DNA from: Fibrobacter sp. UWB16
Lineage (GTDB): Bacteria; Fibrobacterota; Fibrobacteria; Fibrobacterales; Fibrobacteraceae
Assembly: GCF_900215325.1 (NCBI RefSeq)
Contig: NZ_OCMS01000001.1
Span: forward strand, 62,001 to 126,000
Length of the DNA: 64,000 nt
Direction: 5' to 3'
Part shown: positions 42,265-60,175 of the stretch, piece after piece
Numbering within the stretch: the stretch's first letter is position 1
Layout of the letters: each line of letters opens with the position of its first letter
The notes under the pieces: model-generated
Told to the model about the DNA's origin: nothing
Database searches by the model: none
The model's input: only the letters and a program-made list of their open reading frames with translations
Translations under genes and position numbers: made by a program

Positions 42265-45200
42265 ATGATAGATGATTATATTTTACAGAAAGACCGGAAC
42301 ATAATAAATTCATATTTGAAAAAAAATGAATTTCCTCCCAAAGAGAAGTATATTGATTTCTCTTGGAATCCTACCTTATTCTTTGCAAAAATCATTCTAG
42401 CTTCGCAAAATCATACGGCGTTAACCGAAACGGCCATACATACAGAAATTGTTGAATATAACCAAGCAAAAGGAACGAATGTTTCGCTAGATTATTTGTT
42501 AAACCGATTCTGGTTAAGAAATGTTTTGGGGCAAATAAAAATCTCAGGAGCAGTATTACGATTGTTCTTGGATGATAAAATTGTAGAAATACCAAAAGAG
42601 ATTAAAGACGATGAATTAGTAGAAAACTTCCTTTTTATGGAGTTCTTAGTAAAAAAATACAAATACGAAGATTCAAGAACCTGCGAGATTTCCTCGGAAG
42701 TATTTGACTCAATATACATAGGATTCAAGAATTTTTACCCCCAAATGTCCGAATTAGATACTCTTTTGCAGGAATATTCAATAACAAAAGAAGAGGATAA
42801 ATATGTCTTTGTATTGTGGAGGCTAGAACTAAAAGTCGATAAAGGCTTTTTATCGTCGTACATTTTATACTCATTGTTCCAAATTAGAGATTCCTCACAG
42901 GATGCAAAATCACTAAAAGAATGGTTGATTGCCACAAAGTTTATTTTTTGTCCAGAAGCATTTGAATCCCTTTCTGAATGGCATAAAGAACGTTTTATAA
43001 AAACAGCCCTGGAATTGTTGAAAAATGAATATGATTTGGAAGATGGTCGTGAGAATGAAAAATTTTTATTGAACGAAGATTTGAGTTTTTGCTCTTTTTA
43101 TTCAGCAAAAGACATTATATTGAGAAATGGATTGTCTGATTACACTATAGAATCTAAAGAACCTTTTGTTCAGTGGTTAAAATTCTTTTCAAATCGAGAG
43201 AGAGGGGTAGATCTCTTAGATTTTTCGATTCGTGAGGATTGTGTAAAGCTCCTGCAATCACTGCTGATTTACGCAATAAAGAATCCACGAGTCATTAATG
43301 TTTTAGACTTATTTGAAAATAAGTCATATTTACTATATCAAACAATCTTTTACCTAATTCGATTTAATCCTACTCATTTATTGGCATTTATTGATGATAA
43401 AAGATATGGATTATTTTTCTTTTGTTCATTTATCATATTATGTGAGGATTCGTTCAAAAAAAAGTTTGCTGATGAACATATTCCTTTTAAACTAGTTGAT
43501 AAATACACGATTTTATTTTGTGAAAAGAATTTGATCTGCAAAGAGAATTATCATGATGCTTCTTTGCTTTTAGTGTTTTTGATTGAAGGAATGTACAACA
43601 GCAAATGGCCATTTTTATACAGAAATGTTTATGAAAAGGTTTGCTCATCACCCATATTTAAAAAACCAACAAAATCTTGTGTTGCGGCGGCTTTGGACTG
43701 CTTTGAAAAAAATGCCAAAGATATATGGACTCAGCGTATTTGGCAAATAAAAATAAGTGAATTTAAATATTTATTCTTTTTTTATATAAAGGCTGAATCG
43801 TTTGAGAAAAAACAATGTTTTGATTTGATAAAGACATTGTACGAAAATTCTGTTCTAAAAAACGAAAAGTTCAATTATTGGAGAGAATGGAATGAAATTG
43901 ATTCGTTTGAATGGGGAGTTTTTTTTAATCAACTCTATGAACTAGATGAATTAAAAGTTTTTTGCTTAGATATTTTCAATTATCTCAATTTTGATGAGAG
44001 CGAAAGTGATTTTGATAAAAAGTATTCTGGTCCAAAAAAACTTCGTTTGCATCTAAAATTATTGTGCACGGTCTATTCTGAATGGCGTAAGTATGAAAGC
44101 AATGAGAAAGCGGAAAGGCTGGAAGAATGTATTGTTATAATTCTTCAAAATTGCTTTGTAAATAAAATTGAATCGAAAAAGATAGCCATTTTTGACCTAC
44201 TATACGAATCAAACTTGGGTTTTGATTTTAGTACGGAACTGTTTCCGCAGGTGATTGACGTATTGAAGTCTTTTTCTGAGCCGAACAGAAAGAAGGTTCT
44301 GCTGGCAATGTCAAAAGGCGATGACTTAAGACTGATGACAAAGACGTATAATTTAATGGATGATGAAGAAGATCAACGCTTTTTAAAGGGGTTGATGGAC
44401 TTTTCAACAGATGTCGAGAAATCAATCTCATTTTTTGACGATTACATTTCTTTTTTGCAAGATTTATATAATTCACATATTAACAATGAGTTCGCAGATA
44501 AGCTATTTGAAAAATTGGATAGTTCCATCAAAAATAGAGCAAAGGGACTGATAATCGCGCCCTTTGTATTGAATGCGCAAATTTTGAAATTATATAGTCT
44601 ATTTTGGCATAACAATCAAATGGGTTTACTTGAATACAAGAGTCCTTATAAGGATCCAGATGGACGGTATAAAGATGGCTTGATTAGTTTGGAAAATGAG
44701 CGGTACTTTTTGCTGACTCGAATGTATATGAAAAATGGAAAGAATGAGGAAGCTCAGAAAAATGTAAAAAAGATTAGATGTCAAGATTCTGATTATTTTG
44801 CTTTGAAGTACAAGTCTTTTGCACTTTATATATCCGTTTTTTACTCGAAAAACAGCTGCAATTATGCAGAATTGTTAAAACAATGTGACTCGCTAATTAG
44901 AGTGACAAAAAATAAAATGGGAGAAAATAAAAAAATATCGTATGAAGGACTTCAATATTTGTACTACGCTAAAGCGAGTCTTTTAGAAAAGATTGGGGAT
45001 TGTGATAAGCTCTATCAATTCTATAATTCTGTAGAAAATAATTATCATACCAAATTGGATTTCGCCAAACCGGTTGCGACTTGTCTGCTCAATAAAGGAC
45101 GGAATATAGAAGCTTTTAAAGTTTGTAATGCTATTCGACCATCTGAAAAGGAAAAAACAGAATATGAAAAACTAAAGAAAAGCATTCCAGCAGAAGATGA

Positions 45201-45867
45201 AATTTCTCGCTTAGCTAGTTCTTATAGGGAAATCATATGTTTAAGCAAAGAAGATCGATTCAAAGTTTTGCCGGATGTTGTGTGTAAACATCGAGAAAAC
45301 GTTGGCAGTTTTGTTATTCATTCAATATATTTTTGCTTGGAAAAAATTCTTCGGAAGATTAAAACACTAAAACTTTTGCCAGAAGATAATAAAACTGATT
45401 TAATTCAGATAACACTTGAAGCATATCTAAAGACTTTAAATTACGAAAACGATAAAGATCAACCGCATCGAGGTCTTTCGTCATCGAAGAAACAAGCCGG
45501 TGAGTTGGATTTTGTATTAGATTTTGATACATATTCCGTTGTTTTTGAAGCCGTAAGATGTGATTCGTTTAATCAAAATGTAAGAAAACATATTTTAAAA
45601 ATATTCCATTATGATTCGTCAAAGAGAATTTTCGTTAACTTGTTGTATTATGAAGGAAACAATTCTGATTTCTTGAATCATTGGGAAATAATTACTCAAA
45701 AAACATCCAATAATTCAGATGTCGTGTATCCACACAATTTTAAATGTTTGTCTTGTAAAGATATCTCTAATGAATTTGGAAATGCTTCAATTAAAGTTTT
45801 GAAAAATACTCATGAAAACGAATTAGAATTTTATCATATATTTGTCAATTTAAGTTATGCGGATTAA
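42265..45867 (+). CDS. Large helical-repeat protein with C-terminal REase-like domain
   Basis: 1200 residues, AT-rich, unlike its neighbours. The start has AGAGGA at proper distance. Most of the protein (1 to about 1020) is alpha-helical; about 785-950 reads like TPR repeats (YFLLTRMYMKNGKNEEAQ, YYAKASLLEKIGD). Near 1065-1140 a PD-(D/E)xK-like pattern appears: RGLSSSKKQ, GELD (Asp1082), a strand, VVFEAVR (Glu1095, then V where Lys is common) and HILKIFHYD. I recall such GELD-EA domains at the ends of large STAND defence proteins. No Walker A or B is present, so it lacks the NTPase. Candidate anti-phage protein; function not established. Confidence 0.75.
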   Translation: MIDDYILQKDRNIINSYLKKNEFPPKEKYIDFSWNPTLFFAKIILASQNHTALTETAIHTEIVEYNQAKGTNVSLDYLLNRFWLRNVLGQIKISGAVLRLFLDDKIVEIPKEIKDDELVENFLFMEFLVKKYKYEDSRTCEISSEVFDSIYIGFKNFYPQMSELDTLLQEYSITKEEDKYVFVLWRLELKVDKGFLSSYILYSLFQIRDSSQDAKSLKEWLIATKFIFCPEAFESLSEWHKERFIKTALELLKNEYDLEDGRENEKFLLNEDLSFCSFYSAKDIILRNGLSDYTIESKEPFVQWLKFFSNRERGVDLLDFSIREDCVKLLQSLLIYAIKNPRVINVLDLFENKSYLLYQTIFYLIRFNPTHLLAFIDDKRYGLFFFCSFIILCEDSFKKKFADEHIPFKLVDKYTILFCEKNLICKENYHDASLLLVFLIEGMYNSKWPFLYRNVYEKVCSSPIFKKPTKSCVAAALDCFEKNAKDIWTQRIWQIKISEFKYLFFFYIKAESFEKKQCFDLIKTLYENSVLKNEKFNYWREWNEIDSFEWGVFFNQLYELDELKVFCLDIFNYLNFDESESDFDKKYSGPKKLRLHLKLLCTVYSEWRKYESNEKAERLEECIVIILQNCFVNKIESKKIAIFDLLYESNLGFDFSTELFPQVIDVLKSFSEPNRKKVLLAMSKGDDLRLMTKTYNLMDDEEDQRFLKGLMDFSTDVEKSISFFDDYISFLQDLYNSHINNEFADKLFEKLDSSIKNRAKGLIIAPFVLNAQILKLYSLFWHNNQMGLLEYKSPYKDPDGRYKDGLISLENERYFLLTRMYMKNGKNEEAQKNVKKIRCQDSDYFALKYKSFALYISVFYSKNSCNYAELLKQCDSLIRVTKNKMGENKKISYEGLQYLYYAKASLLEKIGDCDKLYQFYNSVENNYHTKLDFAKPVATCLLNKGRNIEAFKVCNAIRPSEKEKTEYEKLKKSIPAEDEISRLASSYREIICLSKEDRFKVLPDVVCKHRENVGSFVIHSIYFCLEKILRKIKTLKLLPEDNKTDLIQITLEAYLKTLNYENDKDQPHRGLSSSKKQAGELDFVLDFDTYSVVFEAVRCDSFNQNVRKHILKIFHYDSSKRIFVNLLYYEGNNSDFLNHWEIITQKTSNNSDVVYPHNFKCLSCKDISNEFGNASIKVLKNTHENELEFYHIFVNLSYAD

Positions 45868-51415: not shown

Positions 51416-54400
51416 TTATTTCTTTTTCTTGTTAGCGTTATTTCCGCGGACATCCTTCGGCTTGAACTGAACGCTAATTTCCACATTCGTCACCTTGGAA
51501 CCGAGTCCAGACGGGTCAAACACCTTGTACGTAAATTCATCGATTCCAGAGAAGCCCTTGTTCGGGGTATATTCGAAGGAACCATTCTTTTCGTTCAAGA
51601 CGATTCGACCATTGCGCGGCTTCATCACGGTCTTCACAGATTCGAGCTTGTCGCCGTCCGGGTCCTTCGCAGCAGACATAAGGCCTGTTGCAGCCGGGAC
51701 CTTGAGCACTTCACCTTCGCGAGTCTGGTAAGAGAGCGGCTTCGTTTCCGGAGCGTTATTCACAGCAATCACCGTAAACGTTGCTGTCTTGTGAGCCGTA
51801 GCGCCTTCCGGGTCGGTGACCGTGAACGTGATGCGTTCCGGCTTGCCCTTCCAGTGAGAATACGGCTGAGCCACGATTACAGTCTTCTTGGCCTTGTCAT
51901 AAGTCACCTGCAGCTGCTTATTGCCAGTGAACTTCCACTTGAGATCGTCGAAGTTGTGGTCCTTATCGCGAGCGTACTGGTCCAGCTTAATCGTAGCAAT
52001 AACGCCTTCGTTCTGATTTTCCCTAATAGTGTAGTCAGGAATGTCGCGCATCACCGGAGCTGCATTCACATGCTTCACGATGAACTTCACAACAGACTTG
52101 TCCGTGCCACCAGCCGGGTCAGTTGCGGTAAAGATGATGGTTTCGTCACCGAACCAGTTGTCTCTTCTCGGCTTGATTTCAGCAACGCGGTTGGCGTTGA
52201 TTCTCACGTCGAGGTTCTTGGCACCAGAGACCTTCCAGCGGATTTCATTCTTCTTGTGGTCCGGATCCGAGACAAAGTCATCGAGATTGATAGACTTGAA
52301 AGCCTTGCCTTCGAGAGTCGTCTGTCCCGGGATTTCCTTCACCACCGGAGCGTCGTTCACGGACTTCACCGTAAAGCGCACTTCAATAGAAGCCTTTTCC
52401 TTGCTCGGGTCAAACACGTTGATCGTCACCGTTTCGCTACCGTTCCAGTACTTGTTCGGGATTTCAACAGTGAGAATACCCTTTTCACTGATATTGTACT
52501 TCAGTTCATGCTTGCCAAAGGTCGGAGCCGGTTCTTCTTCAACATGCTTCTTTTTCTTCTTATCCTTTTTCTTGTCCTTCTTCTTGGACTTTGCAGGTGC
52601 GGCAGAAGCAAACGGATTTTCGCCATCGATAGACCACTTGAGTTCATCGACCTTGTTATCCGGATCCGTCACATACTTGGTCAAGTCGATTGCCGGGAAG
52701 GTCTTCTTTTCGTCAATGACCTGCGGCGGAATCGTCTTAAACTTCGGAGGATCGTTCACCGGAGTCACTTCGAATGTAGCCTTGGCAGACTGCTTGTCGC
52801 CAGCCGGGTCCATCACCGTGAACACGAGCGTTTCCTTACCAAACCAGTTCGGGTTCGGAGTCGTCACCGTTGCACGTCCATTCTTGATATCCACAACGAG
52901 TTCGTTGTTACCAGCAACAGACCACTTGAGTTCATTCGGCTTGTTATCCGGATCATGCACAACCTTGGTAAGGTCCACCATCGTGAACTTTTCCTTTTCC
53001 TTGATCTTCTGATCGCCAATCTGCTTGACAATTGTCGGCGGGTCATTCACCGGAGTCACTTCAAAATCAATCTGCTGAGAAGCTCTTGCACCTTCCGGGT
53101 CCGTCACATCGAGGCGGATCTTTTCAGAACCGTTCCAGTACTTGTCCGGAGTCGTCACAACCAACTGCTTCTTGGCATTGATCGTTGCCTTGAGAGCGCG
53201 GGTCTGGGCAACTTCGATCTTGAGAGAACTCGTCGGATGATCCGGGTCAGAGATGAACTTGGTCAAGTCAATCGGTTCAAAGTGTTCCTTTTCCTTGATT
53301 GTCTGAGCAAGAATCGGTCTGATAACTGGAGCGTCGTTCACAGATTCCACAACGAAATTGACTGTCTTGGAATCCGTAGCACCATCCGGATCCTTCACAG
53401 TGAACACGACATTGCGTTCACCATGCCAGTGCGGGTCGGCAATATTGATGTGGGCAAGGCCACCCTTGTAAATTACGACACTGAACGGATCCTTTACGGC
53501 TTCCTCGTCTTCTTCGTCATCATCCTTCTTACCCTTCTTCTTATCCTTCTTGCTCTTCTTGACCGGCTTTGTTTCAGGCTTCAGCACCTTCACTGCCCAA
53601 GAAAGCTGTTCCATGGTATTATCCGGGTCACGAACGAACTTGCTCAAGTCAATATCCTTGAACTGGCCCTTTTCACGAATTCTCTGCGGCGGGATATCTC
53701 TCAAAACCGGAGGATCGTTCACAGAAACAATTTCAAACGTAATGGACTGAGAAGTCTTAGCGCCATCCGGGTCGCTCACTTCGAGAATCATCATTTCAGG
53801 AGCGCACCAGAAATCCTTGTTCGGAGCCATCACCGTAAGCACACGGCTCGGAGAAATTTCAGCCTTGAGCTGCTTTGCACCAGTGATTCTCCAGCGGAGT
53901 TCATTCGGCTTGTTATCCGGGTCCTTCACAAATTCGTCAAGCTTGATCTGCTTGAAGGTTTCCTTTTCCTTAATCTTCTGGTCCGGGATTCTCTTCACGA
54001 ACGTCGGAGGATCGTTCACACGAGTCACTTCAAAGAGCATCTTGTGGCGAGCATAAGCGCCTTCCGGGTCCGTCACGGAGAACGTGAGGTTTTCCTTACC
54101 GCTCCACTGCTTGTCCGGAACAGAAATAATCACAGTGTTGTCCTTGCGGATATCCACCTTGAGGTCACGATTGCCAGAAACTTCCCACTTCAAGGAAGAT
54201 GCCGGATGGTCCGGGTCTTCGGCGAGAGTCGAGAGGTCGATCGTCTTGAAGCGGCCGCCTTCGAGAATCGTTTCACCCATCGGAGCGTCCTTCGAAATAA
54301 TCGGGGCGTCGTTCACAGAACGCACTTCGAAGCGAGCTGTCTTGCTTGCAGAAGCACCTTCCGGGTCAGTTGCGGTAAACGTGATGTTTGCAGCACCGTG

Positions 54401-57400
54401 CCAATACTTGTTCGGGATAACAATGTTGGCGACCTGGTTTGCATCAACGTTCACGCTGAGCTTTTCACCAGCCGGTTCTTCGTCATCCTTCTTGCCCTTC
54501 TTCTTGGAAGAACCCTGGCCAATCGGGCTTACCTTGAACGTCCACTTGAGATCGCTAATCTTGTGGTCCGGATCCTTCACGAAGTCAGCGAGCTTAATCG
54601 GCTGGAACTGCTTCTTTTCATCAATCGACTGATCGCGAATATCACGAACGAATTCCGGAGCATCGTTCACAGAAAGCACCGTGAATGTCACTTCCTTGCT
54701 ATCCGAGGCGCCATCCGGGTCCGTCACCGTGAAGCGGATCTTTTCAGAACCGTTCCAGCTTGCGTTCGGCGGAGTCACAGTCACCTTATGCGTTGCATCC
54801 ATCGTCACGCGAAGTTCCTTCTGGCCTTCGATCTTCCACTTGAGGCGATTCTTGGCATGGTCAAGGTCTTCAACGTAATTGTCAAGTTCAATCGGCTTGA
54901 ACGATTCCTTTTCCTTGACAGTCTGGCTTGCAATTTCCTTCATGACCGGCGGGTCATTCACAGAAACAACCGTAAATGTTGCAGTTGTACGAGCCTTGGC
55001 ACCAGACGGGTCCGTCACCGTGAACGTCACCTTTTCAGAGCCGTTCCACATCTTGTTCGGAGTCTTGACCGTAACAATGCCGGCCTTGGACATATCGACC
55101 TTGAGGTCCTTATTGCCGGTAAAGTCGATCTTCAAGCTTTCAAAGCGGTCATCCGGGTCAGACACGAGTTCAGACACGTTGAACGGAGTAAATTCGCCCT
55201 TTTCCTGGATGGTCTGGTCGGCCACCTGCTTAATTTCCGGGAGGTCGTTCACGGATTCCACGGTGAAGAGTGCAGAAGAGGAAGCCTTAGCACCTTCCGG
55301 GTCCGTCACCGTAAACGTAATTTCTTCGGCGCCATTCCAGAACTTGTTCGGAATGATAATCTTTGCAACCTTCTGGTCGTCAATTTCAACCTTGAGTTCA
55401 GAATCTTTCTTCTTGGAACCTGCCGCCGGCTTGCTAGAGACAGAGAACGTGAGTTCAGAGAGCTTGTTATCCAAGTCCTTCACCATGTCAGCAAGCTTGA
55501 TCGGCTGGAACTGACCCTTTTCGCGAATCGTCTGCGGCATCACCTGCTTCACGAACATCGGAACGTCGTTCACGGATTCCACAGTAAAGGTTGCGGTACG
55601 TTCGTCGCAAGCGTTATCCGGGTCGCAAACCTTGAACGTCAAGGCTTCGGCACCATGCCACTGCGGAGACGGCGGAGTAATGCGCACGTTACGAGCGGCA
55701 TCCACAGCCACCTTGAGTTCCTTGTTGCCCGTAATCGTCCACTTGAGGCGGTTCTTGGCATGGTCAAGGTCTTCAACAAAGTTATCAAGTTCAATCGTCT
55801 GGAATTCACCCTTTTCCTTGATCGTCTGTTCACGAATATCCTTCATGACCGGCGGGTCGTTGATAGCCTTTACAGTGAACTTAGCAGAAGTTGTTGCACG
55901 AGCGCCTTCCGGGTCCGTGGCCGTAAAGGTCAAGTTTTCCGTACCATTCCACTGGTCGTGCGGAATCTTCACAGAGACTTCATGGGACCTGTTATCGATA
56001 TTGACCTTGAGGTCCTTATTGCCCGTCACTTCGACCTTGAGCTTGGAGAAGTCATGGTCGGCATCGCTCAAGTAGTCATCCAAAATGAACGACGTGAATT
56101 CATTCTTTTCTTCAACAGCCTGGTCCGGGATTTTCTTGAATACCGGCGGGTCGTTCACAGACTTCACATTGAGTGCGACATCCTGCTTTGCAGAACCGCC
56201 TTCCGGGTCGGTGACCGTGAACGTAGCAATCGTGTTACCGTTCCAGCTCGGGTCCGGAATTTCAACCGTAGCCACATGCTGGTCGTCAATATTTACGTTG
56301 AGCGTGCCGAGTTCCGGCATCGGGCCCTGGTGCTTGACTTCGACATCCCAGGAGAGTTCAGAATTCTTGTGGTCTTCATCCTTGACAAAATCATCAAGCT
56401 TGATCTTCGTGAACTGCTGTTTTTCGCTGATGTTCTGGTTCGGAATCGGACGAATGATCTTCGGCAAGTCGTTCACGGAATTGACCGTAAACACGGCTTC
56501 GCATTCAGCAGAAGCGCCTTCCGGGTCCGTAGCCTTGAACTTGATGGATTCAGAGCCATTCCAAAGTTTGTTCGGAATGCGAATAGTGGCAACACCACCA
56601 GAAACAGAGACCTTCAGGTCCTTGGCACCGGCAACAGCCCACTTGAGCATTTCGATGCGGTGGTCCGGATCCTTCACGTACTGGCCAAGCTGAATCGGAG
56701 TAAATTCCTGCTTTTCGTCAATTGTCTGGTCCGGGATGTTCTGAACAAACTCAGGAGGGTCGTTAATAGACTTTACCTTGAGCAAAACATCCTGCTTTGC
56801 AGAAGCACCAGCAGCGTCGGTCACGGTAAACGTCACGCGTTCCTGGCCGTTCCAGAATTCATTCGGAGTGGTAATGATGGCAGAACCGTAATTATCGATT
56901 TCGATCTTCAAGTCCTTGTTGCCCGTCACTGTCCACTTGAGCTTCATCGGATCGTCATCCGGGTCGGTGACATAGTCCGCAAGGGAAATCATGTCGAACT
57001 GGTTCTTTTCGTCGATGACCTGGTCCGGAATCTTCTTCGTAAACGTCGGAGGATCGTTCACGGGCTGAACCGTAAATGCAGCGGTCTTGTTATCGCTACC
57101 GTAATCCGGGTCATTGGCAATAAACTTGATTCTTGCAGCACCATACCAGTGAGCATCCGGCACGACAATCGTCGCAACGCGGTTAGCGTCAATCGTCACA
57201 GACAAATCGCCATCAGCCTGCGGGCCACCAGCCGGAACGACTTCGGTATCCCACGTAATCTGGTTCTTCTTATGGTCTGGGTCATTCACAAAGTCATCCA
57301 GGCGGATCTTTGCAAACTGCTTGCCTTCCGTAATCACCTGGCTTGGAATTTGAGCCACCACCGGTGGATTGTTCACAGATTCGACGGAGAAGTTTACGGT

Positions 57401-57817
57401 TTCCGAAGCCGAGGCGCCCTTGGAGTCCGTAGCCGTAAAAGTCAAGTCTTCAGAGCCATTCCAAAGAGCATCCGGCGTGGTAATTTCAACCGTATGGTCC
57501 GGAGCAATATTCACCTTGAGGGCCTTGTTGCCACTGACTTTCCAGCGAATCTGGGAGGGCTGGTCCACATCGTCGGTGACAAAGTTATCAAGCTTAAACT
57601 TCGAGAAAGTTCCACCTTCCTGAATAGATTCACCAGGAATACCACCAATCTGAGGAGGCTCGTTTGCCGGAGCCGGTTCTGGCGCCGGGGCAGGTTCGTT
57701 CACAGGAGCTGCAGGCTCAGCCTGTGGAGCCGGTGCTGGATTTTGCGCAAACGACGATGTTGCAATAACACTAGCAGAAGCTATCAAGGTCGCCATGGAC
57801 CGCTTCAGTTTATTCAT
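51416..57817 (-). CDS. Giant exported protein of about 20 Ig/cadherin-like repeats
   Basis: 2133 residues from the ATG at 57817. Signal peptide ends near SSFAQ; a Pro/Ala/Glu-rich stretch follows. Then about 20 tandem domains of 90-115 residues, each with VNDPP at the border, EK or EG, LDxFVxDPDH, W-x-V-x-G-x-K-x-L-K-V, WNG-x-E and FTVTDPEGA. DPDH and TDPEG suggest Ca2+ sites as in cadherin-like domains. Domains 2, 5, 8, 11, 14 and 17 carry an insert that becomes longer and richer in Lys/Asp/Glu towards the C-terminus. The last domain differs (tandem-95-like) and the end is Lys-rich without a recognised sorting domain. Likely a stalk, adhesin or envelope scaffold. Confidence 0.9.
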   Translation of the reverse strand: MNKLKRSMATLIASASVIATSSFAQNPAPAPQAEPAAPVNEPAPAPEPAPANEPPQIGGIPGESIQEGGTFSKFKLDNFVTDDVDQPSQIRWKVSGNKALKVNIAPDHTVEITTPDALWNGSEDLTFTATDSKGASASETVNFSVESVNNPPVVAQIPSQVITEGKQFAKIRLDDFVNDPDHKKNQITWDTEVVPAGGPQADGDLSVTIDANRVATIVVPDAHWYGAARIKFIANDPDYGSDNKTAAFTVQPVNDPPTFTKKIPDQVIDEKNQFDMISLADYVTDPDDDPMKLKWTVTGNKDLKIEIDNYGSAIITTPNEFWNGQERVTFTVTDAAGASAKQDVLLKVKSINDPPEFVQNIPDQTIDEKQEFTPIQLGQYVKDPDHRIEMLKWAVAGAKDLKVSVSGGVATIRIPNKLWNGSESIKFKATDPEGASAECEAVFTVNSVNDLPKIIRPIPNQNISEKQQFTKIKLDDFVKDEDHKNSELSWDVEVKHQGPMPELGTLNVNIDDQHVATVEIPDPSWNGNTIATFTVTDPEGGSAKQDVALNVKSVNDPPVFKKIPDQAVEEKNEFTSFILDDYLSDADHDFSKLKVEVTGNKDLKVNIDNRSHEVSVKIPHDQWNGTENLTFTATDPEGARATTSAKFTVKAINDPPVMKDIREQTIKEKGEFQTIELDNFVEDLDHAKNRLKWTITGNKELKVAVDAARNVRITPPSPQWHGAEALTFKVCDPDNACDERTATFTVESVNDVPMFVKQVMPQTIREKGQFQPIKLADMVKDLDNKLSELTFSVSSKPAAGSKKKDSELKVEIDDQKVAKIIIPNKFWNGAEEITFTVTDPEGAKASSSALFTVESVNDLPEIKQVADQTIQEKGEFTPFNVSELVSDPDDRFESLKIDFTGNKDLKVDMSKAGIVTVKTPNKMWNGSEKVTFTVTDPSGAKARTTATFTVVSVNDPPVMKEIASQTVKEKESFKPIELDNYVEDLDHAKNRLKWKIEGQKELRVTMDATHKVTVTPPNASWNGSEKIRFTVTDPDGASDSKEVTFTVLSVNDAPEFVRDIRDQSIDEKKQFQPIKLADFVKDPDHKISDLKWTFKVSPIGQGSSKKKGKKDDEEPAGEKLSVNVDANQVANIVIPNKYWHGAANITFTATDPEGASASKTARFEVRSVNDAPIISKDAPMGETILEGGRFKTIDLSTLAEDPDHPASSLKWEVSGNRDLKVDIRKDNTVIISVPDKQWSGKENLTFSVTDPEGAYARHKMLFEVTRVNDPPTFVKRIPDQKIKEKETFKQIKLDEFVKDPDNKPNELRWRITGAKQLKAEISPSRVLTVMAPNKDFWCAPEMMILEVSDPDGAKTSQSITFEIVSVNDPPVLRDIPPQRIREKGQFKDIDLSKFVRDPDNTMEQLSWAVKVLKPETKPVKKSKKDKKKGKKDDDEEDEEAVKDPFSVVIYKGGLAHINIADPHWHGERNVVFTVKDPDGATDSKTVNFVVESVNDAPVIRPILAQTIKEKEHFEPIDLTKFISDPDHPTSSLKIEVAQTRALKATINAKKQLVVTTPDKYWNGSEKIRLDVTDPEGARASQQIDFEVTPVNDPPTIVKQIGDQKIKEKEKFTMVDLTKVVHDPDNKPNELKWSVAGNNELVVDIKNGRATVTTPNPNWFGKETLVFTVMDPAGDKQSAKATFEVTPVNDPPKFKTIPPQVIDEKKTFPAIDLTKYVTDPDNKVDELKWSIDGENPFASAAPAKSKKKDKKKDKKKKKHVEEEPAPTFGKHELKYNISEKGILTVEIPNKYWNGSETVTINVFDPSKEKASIEVRFTVKSVNDAPVVKEIPGQTTLEGKAFKSINLDDFVSDPDHKKNEIRWKVSGAKNLDVRINANRVAEIKPRRDNWFGDETIIFTATDPAGGTDKSVVKFIVKHVNAAPVMRDIPDYTIRENQNEGVIATIKLDQYARDKDHNFDDLKWKFTGNKQLQVTYDKAKKTVIVAQPYSHWKGKPERITFTVTDPEGATAHKTATFTVIAVNNAPETKPLSYQTREGEVLKVPAATGLMSAAKDPDGDKLESVKTVMKPRNGRIVLNEKNGSFEYTPNKGFSGIDEFTYKVFDPSGLGSKVTNVEISVQFKPKDVRGNNANKKKK

Positions 57818-57844
57818 TTTAGATCTCCGATTCCATATACGCAA

Positions 57845-58231
57845 TCAAAATTTCACTGTGAAATTTTTCACACGTCCTTAAAAACGTCTCTAAATATAAT
57901 GCTTTTCTGCGAAATCTTTTCATATTTCAAAAATGTTTTTCCATAACAAAAAAAGGCTTTTTTGTCCAGCCGTTCCAATTATTTCACGTAACTTTTTGAC
58001 TATCAACGACTTACAGAAAAATCCCCCCAAAAAGTAAAACAGGCGCCATTTTTCAAGAAAACGCCATTTTTCCGAAAAAAGCGCCCTCCAACCGCCCGCA
58101 ATTGTAAACTTTTTGTAAAAATTGGATTTTTTAAGGCATCAGCCCCTCGCAAGAAGGTTCCAAAATATGACAAATTGAGCTAAAAAAGCTAGTTTTAGAG
58201 ATAAACCGATTAAATCTAACCAGGAAACACA
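57845..58231. other. Divergent promoter region with CGCCATTTTT repeats
   Basis: About 390 bases between the giant gene and the 58232 gene, very AT-rich. CGCCATTTTTC occurs twice near 58044-58075 with a related AAAAAAGCGCC inverse. CAATTG-type and CTAAAA / TTTTAG dyads lie at 58100-58195. No gene seen. Confidence 0.4.
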
Positions 58232-58639
58232 ATGAAATTCGTATTTCTCTGCGACGCCAACTACCTCAAAGGCGACATGGTCAACTTCCAGAACAACTTC
58301 CCGACCAATCACGAACTCGTGACGATGACCTCTGAAGACCTTCTCCAGAGCAAGTCCATCATCGAAGGGACATTCGCTATCTTGGCAGAACGCACCACTT
58401 GGCAGAAGAACTTCAGCCTTTTCCGCTACTTCGGCCTCCTCCCGCTCCTTGAAGTGCTCCCGCTCGGCATCGTCAGCCGTGGCCGCCGCAACGAACCCAT
58501 CAAGGGCCGCAGCCAGAACAGAAACCAGGAAATATTCTTCAACCCGGCCGCATCCGCTGAAGAACTTTATCTCCAGGTCGACAAGTTCGTCGCCGCTCCT
58601 CCTTCTGGCTACTCCTATCCGCGCGGAGCCGCCAAGTAA
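58232..58639 (+). CDS. Small cytoplasmic protein, receiver-like fold possible
   Basis: 135 residues without signal or membrane segment. MKFVFLCDANY could be the first strand of a receiver-like alpha/beta fold, with GIVSRGR as a late strand and SAEELYLQVDKFV as the last helix; the phospho-Asp cannot be assigned. C-terminus Pro/Ser-rich. Stop is three bases before the M23 peptidase ATG, so the two are coupled and probably act together. Strong codon bias suggests abundance. Confidence 0.7.
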   Translation: MKFVFLCDANYLKGDMVNFQNNFPTNHELVTMTSEDLLQSKSIIEGTFAILAERTTWQKNFSLFRYFGLLPLLEVLPLGIVSRGRRNEPIKGRSQNRNQEIFFNPAASAEELYLQVDKFVAAPPSGYSYPRGAAK

Positions 58640-58642
58640 GGC

Positions 58643-60175
58643 ATGCAAAGAAAGGTCCTAGAAAGCCTTTACAACCAAGGCGGGCTTACACTTTTCGCCA
58701 TTTCTGACGAAGAAGCGTTACCCATAGAAGCCTTGCATAAATTCGCACTGGCACTTAACGCCGGTGCGCGTTTTGTTGTAATTGACTTCACTGGGAAGCG
58801 CCCTCTCGAAGGGAACGCCCCCATTCAAGCCGCAGACCTTTCAAAAAAGATCCTCTCATCCGAAGAAATCGAAAAAATTTCCGCCTCATTTGCTGACGAC
58901 GGAAGTATTTCATTCACGGGGACCAAAGCACTCCCCACTTCGGACGACGCATTCCGCAAGCTCTACCACAACATCAAAAGCCTCGAAAAGATAGCCCCGC
59001 ACGTCATAGGCATCATTTCGACAGAGCAAGTCGAGAACGTCGGACACCTCGTCTCTATGGCGCGCCTCCTGATTATGCATGTGACGCCCCTTTCAATGAA
59101 ATCGGCAGCCGCATTCATCGAAGACGTCAAAGAGGCTCAAAAAATCGAGATTTTGTGGCTTTCCAAGGAACGCCCAGCCAGACGCAGTTACCCCAAGGCC
59201 CGCAAAGCCATTAGCCGAAACGCCTGCGCCACCAAAGAAGCCTTTTCCATCGATTTCAAGAAAAATCCAGAAAAACTAGCCCAGGTTGTAAGGAAACTCC
59301 ATAAAGTATCCATTCTCGTCAAGAATCCGCTGGACGGATTCCCGAGAATTATCCGCAACCTATTCCCGCTTTTGCTCATTGCGGTCATTATCGCCCCGTT
59401 CCTGTTCGTAACAGACATCGACAGGAGCGATTCGAACCTCCGCGACCGCATCCAGGAACGAAACCAGCTCTCCGTAGCCCCTTCGTTTGAATACACCTTC
59501 GATGGAAACGAAAGTATGCAGCGCATCGCCCGTTACGCCATCGGACGCTTTGACGCCATCATCACCAACGACAAGATGATCAAGAACTACGTGGCGAAAA
59601 CGCTTGAGGACAACGGATATAAAGTCGTCGAATGGGAAAGAGGAAACTTGAACATTCCGCCTAAAGGGACGACCATACGCTTCTCGAGACCGGACGAAAT
59701 CAAGCGCCCCGCCTCGGCAGATACAATCGGCGCCGCCTGGAAATACTGGACATCCGTCATTTCGGATAGCATCGCCTACATTACTGAATTTTATCACGAA
59801 ACAGCGACAGCCACGCAACGAAAGCATAACGGTATCGACGTCGCAAGCCGCCAGGGGGCCCGTATTTTAGCACCATTCGGCGCAAAGGCCTGGACGAGCC
59901 GCGATGAACGAGGCGGCGTCATCATTGCACTTGTCCGCAAGGAAGACGTTATCTTGTTCATGCACTGCGACAAGCTCCTTTATCTGAACGGCCAGGAAGT
60001 CATGCCGGGCGACCCGATTGCAACCGTCGGAACCACCGGGCACACCACAGGGCCACACGCCCACATTGTTACAGGGCTCGTGAGCAAGAAGGGCAAAAAG
60101 CGTATTGGCAATGTCAAATACGACGTAATTGACCCTATCAAGTGGTTTTACAAGTTCAAGCCGACCAACAAATAA
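58643..60175 (+). CDS. Membrane-anchored M23 peptidase with cytoplasmic domain
   Basis: 510 residues. About 1-230 precede the membrane segment and should be cytoplasmic: a Rossmann-like pattern (ARFVVIDFTGK, HVIGIISTEQVENVGHL) reminiscent of MinD/FlhG folds but with no P-loop. One TM helix (LFPLLLIAVIIAPFLFV) near 247-265. The C-terminal part is an M23 fold: HNGIDVAS (HxxxD), FMHCDKL, GHTTGPHAHI (HxH). Such domains cut or bind peptidoglycan stem peptides. A cytoplasmic sensor-like domain joined to a periplasmic M23 is unusual. Coupled to the 58232 gene. Confidence 0.85.
   Translation: MQRKVLESLYNQGGLTLFAISDEEALPIEALHKFALALNAGARFVVIDFTGKRPLEGNAPIQAADLSKKILSSEEIEKISASFADDGSISFTGTKALPTSDDAFRKLYHNIKSLEKIAPHVIGIISTEQVENVGHLVSMARLLIMHVTPLSMKSAAAFIEDVKEAQKIEILWLSKERPARRSYPKARKAISRNACATKEAFSIDFKKNPEKLAQVVRKLHKVSILVKNPLDGFPRIIRNLFPLLLIAVIIAPFLFVTDIDRSDSNLRDRIQERNQLSVAPSFEYTFDGNESMQRIARYAIGRFDAIITNDKMIKNYVAKTLEDNGYKVVEWERGNLNIPPKGTTIRFSRPDEIKRPASADTIGAAWKYWTSVISDSIAYITEFYHETATATQRKHNGIDVASRQGARILAPFGAKAWTSRDERGGVIIALVRKEDVILFMHCDKLLYLNGQEVMPGDPIATVGTTGHTTGPHAHIVTGLVSKKGKKRIGNVKYDVIDPIKWFYKFKPTNK

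Follow-up and report, generated by a model that had tools for sequence, protein, structure and literature searches.

We begin by considering a stretch of 64,000 nucleotides from Fibrobacter sp. UWB16 (contig NZ_OCMS01000001.1, positions 62,001 to 126,000; "the window" below means this whole stretch), in which an open frame on the minus strand (57817-51416) codes for a repeat protein of 2133 residues, with a calculated mass of 237 kDa and isoelectric point of 5.5. Split at the recurring VNDxP linkers, the protein resolves into 20 domains (D1 to D20) of about 97 residues each, confirming the roughly 20 Ig/cadherin-like domains that an earlier note on this DNA had described. The order along the chain is a putative signal peptide, a Pro/Ala/Glu linker, the 20 domains and a short basic tail, and the N-termini of the orthologues resemble that of the window protein. 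The domains match Big_9 in Pfam (PF17963; 482.9 bits against a gathering cut-off of 23.6, E 5e-148, 18 stretches) and tandem-95 in NCBIfam (NF012211; 534.7 bits against a cut-off of 90, 19 stretches). In the NCBIfam scan the Ca2+-stabilised adhesin repeat NF033510 stays below its cut-off (22.4 bits against 50), and a match to the FosC2 fosfomycin resistance model (22.5 bits against 250) is dismissed as spurious. The protein is widely conserved and apparently unstudied, and it comes from a major cellulose-degrading rumen genus. Its mapped parts are as follows.

51416..57817, minus: gene of the 20-domain repeat protein (open frame, Big_9, tandem-95)
57743..57817, minus: putative Sec-type signal peptide, judged by eye, cleavage expected near ...SSFA/QN
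57377..57667, minus: domain 1, without insert (VNDxP split)
57215..57238, minus: D2 insert, 8 residues (profile column 46)
56312..56335, minus: D5 insert, 8 residues (profile column 46)
55406..55432, minus: D8 insert, 9 residues, with KKK (profile column 46)
55250..55255, minus: D8/D9 junction, site of the lost three-domain unit (relatives' D9-D11)
54470..54529, minus: D11 insert, 20 residues, with KKKGKKDDEE (profile column 46; predicted local distance difference test, pLDDT, below 50)
53495..53584, minus: D14 insert, 30 residues, a lysine block and then an acidic block (profile column 46)
52514..52621, minus: D17 insert, 36 residues, KKKDKKKDKKKKK...EEE (profile column 46; pLDDT below 50)
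51764..52360, minus: domains 18 and 19, without insert (VNDxP split)
51419..51763, minus: divergent last domain D20 and short basic C-terminal tail (...NANKKKK)

An every-third register conserved across the order

The inserts of the window protein all fall at one profile position (column 46) and only in D2, D5, D8, D11, D14 and D17, so that the every-third pattern seen in the earlier note is borne out. Their centres lie at 57226, 56323, 55419, 54499, 53539 and 52567, within 8 bases of the positions given there, and are separated by 903, 904, 920, 960 and 972 bases. Strict every-third runs account for 5 of the 38,760 possible placements (C(20,6)), a chance of 1.3e-4 in which the orthologues are not counted.

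The orthologues carry the pattern further. Of the 113 genomes of the order, 84 gave a match, and 60 full-length orthologues from these were compared. Phase-2 domains (D2, D5 and so on) before the last domain have residues at the insert position in 403 of 403 cases, and the remaining domains have none or one in 863 of 866. The D11 insert has only 3 residues in four orthologues, D21 carries 6 extra residues in two, and in no phase-0 or phase-1 domain does the loop exceed 6 residues; 3 of the 866 have more than one residue there. The exact every-third register is thus conserved across the order. It was scored within the order only, and the same register may extend beyond. The protein itself is found in 53 of the 58 good-quality genomes of the order and in 10 of its 12 genera; a genus of the same family (g16) gives no match in two genomes at least 90% complete (G062, G068). 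Five genomes from other parts of the phylum also match with E <=1e-20, the best at 2e-53.

The next question is whether other arrays of this family, which share the domain, the Asn-Asp-Pro linker and the long head-to-tail layout, show the same register. As controls we use eight tandem-95 or Ig-like proteins of named plasmids, placed with the window protein in one iterated profile; some are covered in part, their genes extending past the available stretch. Unlike the repeat protein, none of the eight has a strict every-third register. Four are without any insert of at least 5 residues, three (L112, L113, L114) have irregular inserts at the same loop, and one has a 7-residue insert in eight of nine domains, with 11 residues at column 46 in the first. 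Within the limits of eight controls, what sets the repeat protein apart is its register; the loop itself is permissive.

Two of the controls have features of their own. In that of the Qingshengfaniella alkalisoli plasmid (L112), over half of the 27 domains have an insert of 8-26 residues at the same loop, without register. In that of the Variovorax paradoxus plasmid (L114), the tandem-95 domains are interrupted at intervals by pieces of about 40 residues, possibly a super-repeat of a different kind.

An old three-domain unit and the loss of one copy

We turn our attention to the origin of the register. The orthologues come in two lengths: 17, the clade of the window, have 20 domains, and 43 have 23 domains with inserts at 2, 5 and so on to 20, the longer set reaching into six more genera of the family and, through two genomes, into one genus of another family. 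In the window protein (D1-D18), identity between domains three positions apart (lag 3) is 0.47, against about 0.41 for lags 1, 2 and 4. For the consensus domains of 41 of the 23-domain orthologues it is 0.545 against 0.46, a value reached in none of 20,000 permutations; the same test gives 0 of 20,000 for the window's clade and 3 of 20,000 for the two other-family genomes.

A tree of 22 consensus positions, built with the insert columns left out, has 6 changes of phase against a mean of 10.9 after shuffling, a count as low appearing in 2 of 1000 shuffles. It groups D2, 5, 8, 11 and 14 (89/91), D7, 10 and 13 (95/97), D3 with D6, and D9 with D12, and a second domain tree agrees in placing D3, 6, 9 and 12 together. 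With 1 starred branch of 19, the grouping is statistical and not firm fork by fork. D15-D22 (23-domain numbering) do not sort by phase in either tree. The three-domain unit is therefore real, old and repeatedly duplicated, with its phylogenetic trace limited to D2-D14. Because same-phase domains cluster even with the insert left out, the triplication put forward in the earlier note, which hinged on domains i and i+3 grouping together, is supported for D2-D14, the first two thirds, and not for D15-D22, the remaining third.

The more recent history goes in the other direction. When the domains common to both lengths are put in one tree, the 20-domain genomes fall into a single clade (100), which lies within the 23-domain genera; two long branches join elsewhere in this tree, and the clade of the other Fibrobacter has a support of 91. 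The 20-domain clade has 23-domain genera on either side of it, which rules out that the protein grew recently. Domains 1-8 of the window's clade match domains 1-8 of the relatives and domains 10-20 match 13-23, while D9 is 59% identical to the relatives' D12 against 57% to their D9, and the domain tree sides with D12. The lineage of the window has lost exactly one unit, the relatives' D9-D11, in frame and in register, most simply as a single event in this clade. The alternative that D10-D12 was lost is less likely: of the columns that tell the consensus D9 of the relatives from their D12, the D9 of the window's clade agrees with D12 in 12 and with D9 in 5, by a count made by hand.

The same outcome would arise without selection, by recombination between similar same-phase domains, since the relatives' D9 and D12 consensus sequences are 70% identical and homology alone gives a three-domain loss. 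This raises a rival explanation, that the register is a fossil of duplication in which a tolerant loop of the ancestral unit drifts in length by slippage and has no function of its own. The irregular inserts at the same loop in the unrelated tandem-95 controls fit with such drift, as does the variation of insert length from species to species, from 3 to 44 residues with all positions in the 60 orthologues taken together. Set against it, composition is kept while length varies (27% lysine, with 160 of 180 long inserts net positive), long loops are confined to the phase-2 domains, and the basic tail is retained in 60 of 60. On balance we hold the fossil explanation to be somewhat unlikely. Register kept through the loss of a whole unit, together with one domain in three marked in all 60 orthologues, suggests that the spacing of the loops matters.

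Loop composition, predicted structure and possible roles

From D2 to D17 the window inserts measure 8, 8, 9, 20, 30 and 36 residues. The growth along the protein that the earlier note saw holds within the 20-domain clade, where lengths never fall towards the C-terminus (17 of 17), and fails among the 23-domain relatives, none of which (0 of 43) has non-decreasing lengths; a general gradient is therefore rejected. By median, the longest insert is the sixth in the family and the seventh in the two genomes of the other family (f2). Nor does the charge rise steadily, as had been suggested: the six window inserts contain basic (K+R) and acidic (D+E) residues in numbers of 0/0, 1/1, 4/0, 5/4, 11/10 and 12/6, for net charges of 0, 0, +4, +1, +1 and +6. 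Among inserts of at least 15 residues (n = 180), the net charge is positive in 160, zero in 17 and negative in 3, and these inserts contain 27% lysine, against 11% elsewhere in the protein, and 21% alanine. The last 12 residues carry a net charge of +4 to +9 in 60 of 60 orthologues; the tail is 16 residues long in the window protein and 16-63 among eleven tails listed. In the window protein the Ig scaffold has a net charge of -62, and the inserts and tail together +18.

In the window protein, the inserts of D11, D14 and D17 each have a lysine block and then an acidic one. This brings in a second alternative, in which blocks of opposite charge (KKK, then DDEE) would zip rods into an S-layer-like sheet or bundle. 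Codon usage typical for strongly expressed genes would suit such an assembly. In most relatives and in the f2 family, however, the loops are mainly basic with fewer acids, which makes zippering unlikely as the ancestral role, and we rate this alternative as quite improbable.

AlphaFold models of D10-D12 (pLDDT 87, predicted template modelling score, pTM, 0.54) and D16-D18 (pLDDT 86.5, pTM 0.59) each contain three beta-sandwich domains, in which the insert is the sole segment with pLDDT below 50. It separates two strands of the middle domain whose counterparts in the neighbouring domains pair as a short hairpin; the strand before the D11 insert has 9 residues, against 5 in the neighbours, and that of D17 is not longer. 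The models thus depict the insert as a disordered hairpin loop on a cadherin-like domain. The top fold matches in the PDB are desmocollin, protocadherin, other cadherins and an RTX adhesin extender, with Foldseek E values of 6e-15 to 9e-12 (identity 13-18%) and VIA Z of 10.8-12.1 (identity 11-22%) among the 50 matches listed in each case, which indicate resemblance of fold only; a sequence search of solved structures gives weak matches, the best at E 5e-6. Over 1269 domains, residues N2, E17, D32, D34 and D81 are conserved at 96-100%, D3 at 86% and E73 at 76%, with a spacing that we take to be like that of cadherin calcium ligands. The domain junctions are probably stiffened by calcium. Cadherin and RTX-adhesin extender repeats (protocadherins, 6xi1) share with the repeat protein the fold, the tandem layout and putative equivalents of its conserved acidic, ligand-like positions; they differ in the low identity (11-22%), and calcium binding by the repeat protein is a prediction.

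Bacterial Ig arrays are usually taken as featureless extenders. Combining the above, we consider it about an even chance that this one is a secreted, rod-like envelope or surface protein with calcium-stiffened junctions and regularly spaced, mainly basic contact loops. The protein evolved in part by tandem duplication of a three-domain unit with one specialised domain, whose hairpin between main strands three and four is opened, in the models, by a disordered, usually lysine-rich loop. The loops (six here, seven in the relatives) and the basic tail could then make electrostatic contacts at regular intervals, of about 13 nm for a cadherin domain length of about 4.3 nm, and might keep the rod aligned on an anionic partner, for which an envelope polysaccharide, a polymer associated with peptidoglycan and neighbouring rods are candidates. 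Periodic binding by the loops, also proposed in the earlier note, is plausible; anionic envelope polymers are a first guess for the partner, with self-association and plant polysaccharide placed lower.

Several observations weigh against this picture of a rod with contact loops. The pTM values of the three-domain models are only 0.54 and 0.59, so that a straight rod is a presumption. Unregistered inserts at the same loop in other tandem-95 proteins mean that the loop may simply be permissive. The window's clade adds acidic blocks that make the long loops polyampholytes, with a median net charge of about 0 in D14, a poor fit to a purely polyanion-binding role. Finally, D15-D22 lack phase clustering, so that the history of the last inserts may differ from that of the others.

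The super-repeats of titin, long units of 11 domains, offer the closest analogy in logic. The A-band of titin shares with the repeat protein tandem Ig-class domains in higher-order repeats; titin differs as a eukaryotic sarcomere protein of Ig and FnIII domains, and no homology is claimed. According to PMC10665226, like-position domains of the central super-repeats are most alike, each super-repeat has one docking position (about 43 nm apart), and deletion of super-repeats shortens the filament. A titin-like logic for the bacterial protein, with a calcium-stiff rod of about 90 nm, one basic docking loop per super-repeat, partners spaced at about 13 nm and length changing in whole units, is, in our view, unlikely. 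Ruler or scaffold logic outside muscle becomes tractable to test with this protein.

A third alternative is an adhesin for plant cell wall or cellulose with the loops as contact sites. The genus, Fibrobacter, invites it, and in PMC4619616 two other cadherin-domain proteins of strain S85 are in the cell-envelope proteome, one solely on cellulose; these are listed there at 318 and 22 kDa, however, against 237 kDa here. The Pfam and NCBIfam scans find no carbohydrate-binding module (CBM) or other binding domain in the repeat protein, and NCBIfam finds no C-terminal sorting domain of the type IX secretion system (T9SS; TIGR04183 or similar) at E 0.01. The protein's occurrence in 10 of the order's 12 genera and a divergent neighbour that is a peptidase gene, rather than carbohydrate enzymes, also speak against it. 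The adhesin is very doubtful, and a cellulose or T9SS role, the former suggested in the earlier note, is unsupported by these scans. The basic terminal domains (BTD/Fpm-1) of Fibrobacter enzymes resemble the repeat protein in being basic C-terminal ends of secreted proteins; they are listed at about 40-90 residues and proposed as T9SS signals (PMC6851124), different from a 16-residue tail with no T9SS model match. Within the accessible main texts, PMC4619616 names no protein of this size except a 233-kDa GH9 enzyme, the word "cadherin" is missing from PMC6851124, and "cadherin" and "Ig-like" are missing from the S85 genome paper (PMC3079729). A literature search, covering sources available in part, returned no publication that we recognised as describing the repeat protein or its register.

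Gene neighbourhood and codon usage

Upstream of the repeat gene lie the following features.

57818..58231, no strand: 414-bp intergenic region between the repeat gene and a divergent pair (135-residue frame, then M23 peptidase)
58643..60175, plus: divergent M23 peptidase gene, conserved neighbour (Pfam)

Of 57 loci within the family, 54 have the M23 gene upstream in divergent orientation. In two of the remaining three the upstream sequence is shorter than 1.4 kb, and the third has 4 kb with the gene missing; in two other-family genomes it was not found beside the repeat gene within the 2.1 and 4.9 kb inspected. This neighbourhood hints at an envelope role of the repeat protein. The 414-bp region contains a sigma-70-like site (58006-57978, minus), and such sites are no commoner there than by chance. 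The 135-residue frame (58232-58639, plus), between the repeat and M23 genes, is below the cut-off of 150 residues and is overlaid by an antisense frame of 169 residues.

In the 2133 codons of the repeat gene TTA, CTA and TCA never occur, and its codon adaptation index, measured against ribosomal genes, ranks fifth of the 31 window frames scored; from codon usage, the protein is probably highly expressed. An antisense frame of 2051 residues (51791-57946, plus), frame-aligned with the repeat gene, is an artefact of codon usage, being open because the sense gene lacks these three codons. Elsewhere in the window, a frame of 1200 residues (42265-45867, plus) has no Pfam or PADLOC match and the lowest codon adaptation index of the 31; a search of 60 other Fibrobacter genomes matched it in one (28% identity), and it looks like a recent arrival.

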